From NCBI GenBank assembly GCA_022483465.1, contig JAKVNF010000003.1, forward strand, positions 536,001 to 600,000: 64,000 nt of DNA, in the 5' to 3' direction. A program made the position numbers and the translations under genes. Below the pieces are notes generated by a model that was given only the letters and a program-made list of their open reading frames with translations, was not told the origin of the DNA and searched no databases. Shown here piece after piece: positions 10,685 through 62,153 of this stretch; the stretch's first letter is position 1, and every line of letters starts with the position of its first letter. Source of the stretch: Lachnospiraceae bacterium. Its GTDB lineage: Bacteria > Bacillota > Clostridia > Lachnospirales > Lachnospiraceae.

Positions 10685-10992
10685 GGCGTTAGTAAGAAAA
10701 CGGGTTGATAAGCGATCGCCTAGCATGAGACCACTAATACCTCACTTTGAGCTCGAGCTGGGTACACTCCTATCCGTGCTGTGTTGCATCATGTAACAAA
10801 GCATCACCTAGATTGCCTAAACACATACACTCACTTGCCGAGTATGTGACTATAAATAACAAGATAGGCATTATGCGGAGAAGAAAAGAGCTCCAAATGG
10901 GGATTCTATATCTTCATCGGACATTATCGCGTCGAGAGTTCACCATGGAGGTTGTGGTATGGAACCCATCAACCCGGTTCTTTACTAACGCC
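10685..10992 (+). mobile_element. 308-bp MITE-like element, copy 1 (subtype A)
   Basis: The element begins GGCGTTAGTAAGAAAACGGG and ends with the inverted counterpart (TTTACTAACGCC). TATCGAATA flanks it perfectly on both sides (10676-10684 and 10993-11001), a 9-bp target duplication. It carries no transposase. It is one of five copies and shares its variant bases (CACATACACTCA, CGGAGAAG) with the inner nested copy at 61016-61323. It lies just upstream of a small ORF and could affect that promoter. Confidence 0.92.
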
Positions 10993-16100: not shown

Positions 16101-17334
16101 ATGAAGAAAACCCGCTTTTCCAAGGCGCTGCGAAAGCTGGTCCGCTTTGTGCGGCGCAACAAAAAAGCTCTTGCCATCCGGGCACTGGTCATCGCCGTTC
16201 CGGTTCTTGTGGTTGGCGTTAGTAAAGAACCGGGTTGACGGGTTCCATACCACAACCTCCATGGTGAACTCTCGACGCGATAATGTCTGATGAAGATATA
16301 GAATCCCCATTTGGAGCTCTTTTCTTCTCTGCATAATGCCTATCTTGTTATTTATAGTCACATGCTCGGCAAGTGGGTGTATGCTTTTAGGCAATCTAGG
16401 TGATGCTTTGTTACATGATGCAACACAGCACGGATAGGAGTGTACCCAGCTCGAGCTCAAAGTGAGGGATTAGTGGTCTCATGCTAGGCGATCGCTTATC
16501 AACCCGTTTCTTAACTAACGCCTTGTGGTTTTTTGCCTTGTTCACTTCCTCCGCCCCGCCGCAAAGAGCAGTACCGAGGAGACGTCGGCAGAGGCCGTGA
16601 CCGTGCCCGCCTGGGAGAGCATCACCTACGTAAACCCCGCTGCCGCCTATGACAGCAGCAAGTTTGTCAAAAACGGCTCCCTGATGTCCTATCAGGACGA
16701 GAACTACGTCTCCGTCCAGGGAATCGACGTCTCCTCCTACACCGGGGACATCGACTGGGCGAAGGTGAAGGCCGCGGGCATCCGCTTTGCCTTCGTGCGC
16801 CTCGGCTACCGGGGCTACACCGAGGGCGGCATCAGCCTGGATTCCCACTTTGTCCAAAACATGGATGCCTGCAAGGTGCAGGGGATCCCGGTGGGAGTCT
16901 ATTTCTTCTCCCAGGCGGTGAGCGAGGACGAGGCCCGGGAGGAGGCGGCCTTCTGCATCCAGAACCTCTCGGGGTACGATCTCGCCCTCCCCATCATCTA
17001 TGACCCCGAGGACGCCCCGGACGACACCGCATGAACCGCAAATCTGACCGGGACGCAGATCACCGCCAACGCCTTGGCCTTTGTCAAGGCCATCGAGGAT
17101 GCAGGCTACACCGCAGGAATCTACGCCAACAGGGAGTGGCAGAAGAACGTCCTCGACATGACCCAGTTTCAGAACACCATCGTCTGGTTTGCGGGCTTTA
17201 CCGACACGCCCCAGACCGCGTATCACTTTGAGTACTGGCAGTACAGCCACACGGGATCCGTGGACGGCATCGCCTCCGACGTGGATGTGGACATGGACAT
17301 CCGCATGGTCCCCACCGGCAGTCTGACCAATTAG
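16101..17334 (+). pseudogene. GH25 lysozyme-like gene, split by a MITE and by an in-frame stop
   Basis: The N-terminus (16101-16214) encodes a basic start and a signal anchor (KKALAIRALVIAVPVLVV). A 308-bp element then interrupts the gene. From 16523 the frame runs through a GH25 domain: QGIDVSSYTGDIDWAKVK, FAFVRLGYRGYTEGG and VGVYFFSQAVSEDEA. A TGA at 17032-17034 follows PDDTA. The same frame continues after it (TANLTGTQITANALAFVKAI, FEYWQYSHTGSVDGI) to 17334. The DVSS Asp and the Glu in YDPEDA are family active-site positions. GH25 enzymes cleave peptidoglycan. Two independent lesions make this non-functional. Confidence 0.88.
16215..16522 (-). mobile_element. 308-bp MITE-like element, copy 2 (subtype B)
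   Basis: The element is in reverse orientation to copy 1, running from GGCGTTAGTAAAGAACCGGG to TTAACTAACGCC. TTGTGGTT flanks it on both sides (16207-16214 and 16523-16530), an 8-bp duplication. It is nearly identical to copy 3 at 47343. It splits the GH25 gene within the signal-anchor region. Confidence 0.93.
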
Positions 17335-47342: not shown

Positions 47343-47650
47343 GGCGTTAGTTAAGAAACGGGTTGATAAGCGATCGCCTAGCATGAGACCACTAATCCCT
47401 CACTTTGAGCTCGAGCTGGGTACACTCCTATCCGTGCTGTGTTGCATCATGTAACAAAGCATCACCTAGATTGCCTAAAAGCATACACCCACTTGCCGAG
47501 CATGTGACTATAAATAACAAGATAGGCATTATGCAGAGAAGAAAAGAGCTCCAAATGGGGATTCTATATCTTCATCAGACATTATCGCGTCGAGAGTTCA
47601 CCATGGAGGTTGTGGTATGGAACCCGTCAACCCGGTTCTTTACTAACGCC
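47343..47650 (+). mobile_element. 308-bp MITE-like element, copy 3 (subtype B)
   Basis: The ends are GGCGTTAGTTAAGAAACGGG and, on the other strand, GGCGTTAGTAAAGAACCGGG. TATCTGGTT flanks it perfectly (47334-47342 and 47651-47659). It lies 26 bases before the start of the 7TM sensor gene, just after a leader hairpin (GCTCC/GGAGC) and a T run ending at 47334. It is nearly identical to copy 2. Confidence 0.93.
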
Positions 47651-60634: not shown

Positions 60635-60877
60635 GTAAGAGGAGGACGACGCCATGAGAAAGGGCATTCATTTCCTGGTTTTGCTGGCCGCGGCTCTGCT
60701 TTTGTTCTCCCTCCCGGTAAGGGCGTCGGATTTTGAGGACGACAGGCTGGACTTTGTCACCGACGAGGCGGGACTTCTTACGGACGAGGAGTGGACAGCG
60801 CTGGAGACGCGGGCAGAGGAGCTCTCCACGGAGTATGCCTGCGGCATCTACGTCATCACGGTGGATGATTTTCGAAA

Positions 60878-61501
60878 GGCGTTAGTAAAGAACCGGGTTG
60901 ATGGGTTCCATACCACAACCTCCATGGTGAACTCTCGACGCGATAATGTCTGATGAAGATATAGAATCCCCATTTGGAGCTCTTTTCTTCTCTGCATAAT
61001 GCCTATCTTGTTATTGGCGTTAGTAAAGAACCGGGTTGATGGGTTCCATACCACAACCTCCATGGTGAACTCTCGACGCGATAATGTCCGATGAAGATAT
61101 AGAATCCCCATTTGGAGCTCTTTTCTTCTCCGCATAATGCCTATCTTGTTATTTATAGTCACATACTCGGCAAGTGAGTGTATGTGTTTAGGCAATCTAG
61201 GTGATGCTTTGTTACATGATGCAACACAGCACGGATAGGAGTGTACCCAGCTCGAGCTCAAAGTGAGGTATTAGTGGTCTCATGCTAGGCGATCGCTTAT
61301 CAACCCGTTTCTTAACTAACGCCTTGTTATTTATAGTCACATGCTCGGCAAGTAGGTGTATGCTTTTAGGCAATCTAGGTGATACTTTGTTACATGATGC
61401 AACACAGCACGGATAGAAGTGTACCCAGCTCGAGCTCAAAGTGAGGGATTAGTGGTCTCATGCTAGGCGATCGCTTATCAACCCGTTTCTTAACTAACGC
61501 C
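60878..61501 (-). mobile_element. 308-bp MITE-like element, outer copy (subtype B), carrying an insertion
   Basis: The outer copy runs from GGCGTTAGTAAAGAACCGGG at 60878 to the inverted end at 61501. TTTTCGAAA flanks it perfectly (60869-60877 and 61502-61510). The total of 624 bases equals 308 plus the nested 308-bp copy and its 8-bp duplication. It has B-type variant bases and two private changes. Confidence 0.93.
61016..61323 (-). mobile_element. 308-bp MITE-like element, inner nested copy (subtype A)
   Basis: This complete copy lies inside the outer element, flanked by TTGTTATT (61008-61015 and 61324-61331), an 8-bp duplication. Its variant bases match copy 1 (CACATACACTCA in the forward sense) and not the outer copy, so it came from a different source copy. 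Confidence 0.93.
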
Positions 61502-62153
61502 TTTTCGAAACTACACCACGGACGAGGACGTCTATGAGGCGGCAAAGAGCCTGTACCAGGAGTACCGCCTGGGATACGGAGAGGAGCAGAGCGGAGAGCT
61601 CCTCCTTCTGTCCATGGAGGAGCGGGACTATGCGCTCATTGCCTACGGATACGGGAACACGGCGTTTACGGACTACGGAAAGGACAAGCTTTCCGAGAAT
61701 TTCCTTGACGACTTCGGGGAGAGCAGCTGGTACAAGGGTTTTTCCGATTACCTCGAAAAGAGCGGTTCCATGCTCCGGCAAGCGTGCGAGGGAAACCCTC
61801 TGGATGTGAGTTCGAATCCCCTGATCCGCAACGCCGGGATCCTGATCTCCATCGTGACAGCCCTTGTGATCGCCCTGGTGATCACAGCCCTTGCGGCAAA
61901 GTATTCCATGCAGTCCGTATCGCGCGCACACACCGCCGCGGCCTACCTGGATGCGGGGAGTGTCACCATCACGGGAAGGGAGGATCGTTTCTCCCACGTG
62001 ACAGAGGCGAGGGAGCGGATCGAATCCGATCACAGCAGCGGCGGCACAACCATCGACAGTGACGGCTTTTCCGGAAAGAGCGGGAAGTTCTGAAAGGCAG
62101 AACAGAACAGTCTGCTCCCCATGGATGAAAGCCGTGTAGAAAGGGGAAAACAG

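Follow-up and report, generated by a model that had tools for sequence, protein, structure and literature searches.

MITEs of the IS1595 family, nested elements and MITE-bounded composites are known already. In the archaeon Haloquadratum walsbyi, an IS1595-family MITE tied to ISHwa6 is described as 165 bp long and present in seven copies, with inverted repeats of 25 bp and direct repeats of 8 bp, and in the same account nested elements are treated as Russian dolls (PMC3852290). The composites called TIME-COMPs belong to the Tn3 family and have 5-bp repeats; two MITEs surround a passenger, and the whole moves as a unit (PMC13367494). Among the IS1595/Merlin elements, an N-terminal zinc domain is reported in all IS1595 groups except IS1016 (PMC8101967). 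MITEPsy1 of Pseudomonas syringae pv. phaseolicola, which is 100 bp long with a 4-nucleotide duplication and six copies, is reported to transpose in vivo (PMC3189936).

The MITE analyzed here, found in a 64,000-nucleotide stretch of a Lachnospiraceae genome (the window), resembles the H. walsbyi element, as that account gives it, in its IS1595 affiliation, 25-bp inverted repeats, 8-bp direct repeats and multiple copies, but it is 308 bp long, has more than 110 copies and occurs in nested, tandem and hybrid forms. As in the TIME-COMPs, MITE ends appear to move the stretch that they enclose, the evidence being direct repeats that flank the unit; in contrast to what is described for them, the passenger is a copy from the same MITE family and one element provides both outer ends. 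The DDE_Tnp_IS1595 domain, GG ends and target duplications (TSDs) of 8 or 9 bp are held in common with IS1595/Merlin, whereas the MITE is only a derivative, without a transposase. Like MITEPsy1, it is a short non-autonomous element with some copies within mobile elements and one in tandem with an IS, though it differs from MITEPsy1 in its length and copy number and in having duplications of 8-9 bp. The modest novelty would be that a MITE nested in its own kind moves as a whole; in the four papers cited here, subscription literature lying outside the scope, no such MITE was found described from two sites whose duplications differ.

An earlier note on this DNA had claimed that a 308-bp MITE lies inside a copy of itself at positions 60878-61501 of the window and that the lengths add up exactly. 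An exact audit of the element ends and duplications bore this out: the 624 bp (308+308+8) contain one complete MITE within another, both in the same orientation. The whole unit is preceded and followed by TTTTCGAAA, and TTGTTATT stands on both sides of the inner element. Once the outer halves (60878-61015 and 61324-61501) are rejoined, they give 138+178-8 = 308 bp. When the copies were aligned and the diagnostic bases mapped, the inner element was letter for letter haplotype A and the rejoined outer element letter for letter haplotype B, two haplotypes that differ at 10 sites, as the note had said of the subtypes. The different subtypes inside and outside also support its claim that at least two source copies moved, the outer one being in place before the inner. 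The note's count of five copies in the window was right. Its two subtypes can be refined: the copies at 16215 and 47343 belong to a third subtype, B', and the one at 10685 is an A copy with an IS-type tip. The features in the window are as follows.

10685-10992, minus strand: single MITE, subtype A with IS1-type right tip, 9-bp duplication TATTCGATA
16215-16522, plus strand: single MITE, subtype B' (T25C), duplication TTGTGGTT
47343-47650, minus strand: single MITE, subtype B' (T25C), 9-bp duplication AACCAGATA
60654-60877, plus strand: TPM-domain gene, 5' part, with the frame ending inside the composite at 60951
60869-60877, plus strand: target duplication TTTTCGAAA, left; one copy in the relative G261
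60878-61015, plus strand: left 138 bp of the outer MITE (subtype B), ending in the target TTGTTATT (61008-61015)
61016-61323, plus strand: inner MITE (subtype A, haplotype A), complete, 308 bp
61324-61501, plus strand: outer MITE, right part, 178 bp, opening with the duplicated TTGTTATT (61324-61331)
61502-61510, plus strand: target duplication TTTTCGAAA, right
61511-62093, plus strand: TPM-domain gene, 3' part

The composite disrupts the TPM-domain gene after codon 74, and the remaining frame stops within the composite. In a close relative, G261, the intact orthologue has 268 amino acids and the Pfam domain TPM_phosphatase. A check of relatives for an empty site, proposed in the earlier note, succeeded in this genome, which reads GTGGATGATTTTCGAAACTACACC at the locus, with a single copy of the 9-mer TTTTCGAAA and no insert, in flanks that are 97.9% and 98.8% identical to those of the focal locus on the two sides. 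This uninterrupted site indicates that the insertion at 60878-61501 is real; as a comparison of sequences it proves the insertion there, though not its nested nature. The nesting, as opposed to the insertion as such, depends on the assembly. One sub-threshold Rfam match at the locus was put down to chance.

The genome itself (G000; 4.3 Mb in 4 contigs, of which C1, C2 and C3 are named below, L numbers being locus labels) contained 112 single copies that could be located, every one of 308 bp; they were found by near-exact patterns of the terminal inverted repeats (TIRs), so that copies with mutated tips are under-sampled in this number. It is the sum of 87 copies with the TIR pattern, 23 with T25C and two (window 10685 and L138) whose right tip is of the IS type. 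The TIR-to-TIR pattern matched 87 times against 0 for a reversed-pattern control, which excludes chance. The copies fall into only seven haplotypes (66 A, 22 B', 16 B, 4 B2, 2 IS-tip and 2 singletons), which points to a recent burst. All 66 A copies, including the inner copy of the nested pair, are identical to one another, as are the 16 B copies. The TIRs are 25 bp long and 92% complementary, and subtype A has stops in each of its three forward frames, so there is no transposase gene. In other words, the element is short, lacks a transposase gene, has TIRs and TSDs, is present in many near-identical copies and has a possible autonomous partner, as expected of a MITE.

Duplications of 8 bp flank 98 of the 112 copies and duplications of 9 bp another 11; the three without one are a copy in a hybrid unit that has its own TSD, a copy whose flanks match at 7 of 8 bases, and L138, which has none. 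The motif WWNNNNWW was found in 96 of the 98 8-bp TSDs (some copies share a site), compared with 3.2% of window positions. The insertion places are not all independent. Six A copies occupy one identical position of a larger repeat (C3:700230, C2:767518, C1:1445168, C1:1270588, C1:810760 and C1:770237; the set includes loci L144 and L145) and seem to have been taken there by another repeated element; two other pairs of copies have long flanks in common. Two A copies, at window 10685-10992 and L138:759-1066, have a right tip turned IS1-type by three changes in four bases. A diverged copy, L072 (G000:C3:417228), has 18 differences from A and helps to sort older from newer bases. A truncated MITE at L137:1024-1159 (G000:C1:1119223) retains the right part only (element positions 173-308). 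At least 338 TIR-like ends were counted, of which 331 are accounted for; an additional nested copy may be among the approximately seven unplaced ends.

The candidate partners of the MITE are two insertion sequences of this genome, labeled IS1 (1214 bp) and IS2 (1187 bp, 72% identical to IS1). Both transposases scored above the cut-off for PF12762 (Pfam) and NF033547 (NCBIfam), which places them in the IS1595 family. The IS1 transposase has 342 amino acids, and 44 of 65 matches to it are full length without stops; for IS2, two matches span residues 2-342 without stops and the other IS2-like ones are partial. L143:2500-3504 (G000:C1:1610999-1612003) contains another transposase gene of the IS1595 family, the third, with 37% identity to the one in IS1. 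Against the left tip of IS2, the MITE agrees at 24 of 25 positions with its left tip and at 27 of 28 with its right tip. TSDs were examined for 40 of the 44 full-length IS1 copies: 37 have one of 8 or 9 bp and three have none, and 35 of the 37 carry A/T at both end dinucleotides.

Inside the MITE, positions 72-212 align with IS1 249-389, within the transposase gene, at about 63% identity and with a score of 28, compared with 11 for the reverse strand and a mean of 11.1 (sd 1.4, maximum 18) for 200 dinucleotide shuffles. The same interior scored 14 against IS2 (shuffle maximum 17), which is not significant. The level of identity to IS1 indicates that the true parent is a diverged relative, and the MITE looks like what remains, after internal deletion and decay, of a diverged IS1595 element. 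Because the ends are related and the target rule is common to the MITE and the IS, the IS1 (or IS2) transposase is the likely, putative mover of the MITE in trans.

A letter-for-letter duplicate of the 624 bp is present at G000:C1:1610334-1610957, about 40 bp from the third transposase gene, with TTCAAAAA on either side. The two composites agree for only 2 bp past one element end and 4 bp past the other, and their flanks are unrelated; segmental duplication as the source was rejected, since identity stops at the element ends. An empty site for the second composite was sought in 62 same-genus genomes, of which one, the genome itself, matched the left flank. Direct repeats thus surround the same 624 bp at both places (TTTTCGAAA here and TTCAAAAA on C1), a picture that gene conversion would give as well. 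With a target model built from 88 TSDs, about 1.05 nestings are expected by chance during growth of the family to 107 copies, which makes nesting an ordinary event and the duplicated nested unit the informative part. Since the nested pair stands at two places with different TSDs, the focal locus is not necessarily where the nesting arose. Most likely the nested pair moved as a unit, copying by recombination being the alternative.

Other combinations of ends were found in the same genome. An IS1 of 2478 bp (L181, G000:C1:1014618-1017095, TSD TCAGGAAA) bears four tandem MITEs near one end, in the order B2, B, B2, B, every copy being flanked on either side by TAAGCAAT. Neighboring copies in this array differ in subtype, which is better explained by repeated use of one 8-bp target and later duplication of a dimer, in an order of events that we infer, than by slippage of a single copy. 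Two A copies occupy C2:928411-929034, where AAATTGTT separates them and also stands at the outer end of each. A 340-bp hybrid at C3:522817-523156 (L074:669-1008) consists of an IS1 tip, TAAGCAAT and one MITE of subtype B; the tip is the same as in the IS1 with the four-copy array, and a TSD of its own, TTTTTATA, flanks the hybrid on either side. This indicates that one IS end was paired with one MITE end, and hence that non-standard end pairs are usable.

The explanation that we consider probable as a whole is that subtype A nested into subtype B and that the resulting 624-bp composite was then moved as a unit by one or more IS1595 transposases. According to it, a 308-bp non-autonomous MITE of the IS1595 family, mobilized in trans by the IS1595 transposase or transposases of this genome, would recently have reached more than 110 places; subtype A would have entered a WWNNNNWW target, TTGTTATT, at element positions 131-138 of a B copy; and the transposase would then have used the outermost pair of ends, moving the composite at least once, so that it ended up both in the TPM-domain gene and at C1:1610334. 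The part concerning unit movement is based on the two identical composites with different flanks and TSDs. It could instead be supposed that there was a single nesting, and that the inner element was then copied into another, previously inserted B copy through gene conversion or homologous recombination. The B copies would provide identical arms of 138 and 170 bp beside the nesting site, and because they are identical to one another the sequence at C1:1610334 is compatible with conversion, which would leave the TSDs as they were; in addition, the two IS1-tipped A copies and a B' copy in which position 254 has the base of A could be the products of short exchanges. However, not one of the 112 copies is an A/B mosaic despite the 10 sites at which A and B differ, and the 26 biallelic sites yield only two incompatible pairs, both due to the copy changed at 254. 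The A bases that B' carries at 161, 191 and 224 are also found in the diverged copy L072, and are therefore read as an older state and not as a mosaic. Copying by recombination is accordingly judged unlikely.

Identical composites at two places would likewise result if subtype A had inserted twice, independently, hitting the same 8 bp of two B copies in one and the same orientation. Targets are reused locally in this genome, as in the four-copy array at C1:1014650 and the two-copy array at C2:928411, each with the same 8 bp between all of its copies, but TTGTTATT is only the tenth-ranked target in B, with 3.2% of the target weight, and under the target model the probability that a second nesting would hit this site in this orientation is about 0.016; we regard this reading as very improbable. 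An assembly artefact, in which one or both composites are plain elements wrongly resolved, is less remote than that and still quite improbable. The family is highly repetitive, a composite that replaced a plain copy during assembly would retain the TSDs of the latter, and both known instances of the composite come from a single assembly, the one on C1 lying near a contig end (about 8.5 kb away). Against this, the inner copy has an exact 8-bp duplication of its own, the unit recurs identically at two places, which makes a one-off mis-join less likely, and 4 contigs for 4.3 Mb suggest that the assembly crossed 308-bp repeats. The empty site in G261 and the second composite ease the doubt only partly.

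Outside this genome, the MITE was not found in viral contigs, plasmids or phages, nor was the junction pattern found in the collection of genome contigs, searches from which near records were perhaps left out. Among 41 relatives and 62 same-genus genomes it was present in its own genome only, and 200 genomes of the family added one 24-bp match in G229 that was judged to be chance; this absence is weak evidence, because the genome sets overlap and drafts often lose repeats. A MAG titled Eubacterium sp. UW_Xyl_LCO2 has an IS 98.4% identical to IS1, and Fusobacterium naviforme ATCC 25832 has one with 83% identity to IS2; in the stretches with these relatives the IS stands alone, without the MITE. 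The located copies have almost no private mutations, which suggests recent events, and sister strains might still display intermediate steps.

If nested composite and hybrid did arise by transposition, the genome would be a natural record of the end pairs that an IS1595-family transposase can use: the two ends of one element, the outermost ends of a nested pair, and a MITE end together with an IS tip. It is about an even question whether this can be generalized, that is, whether the transposase pairs inverted ends irrespective of any ends between them, so that self-nesting and insertion into IS tips keep making larger mobile units, by which are meant the 624-bp composite, the 340-bp IS/MITE hybrid, the IS-tipped MITEs and the tandem arrays at one target. 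Were this true, self-nesting would be a route from a MITE without a passenger to a transposon that carries cargo. The TSDs also provide a clear target rule (WWNNNNWW, duplications of 8-9 bp) for IS1595 elements in this host. Elements lie end to end, 7-10 bp apart, at five junctions, three within the four-copy array, one in the A pair and one between two insertion sequences; in this last case (L039:17-2424), IS1 and IS2 are in tandem with 7 bp (TTCTGAT) between them.
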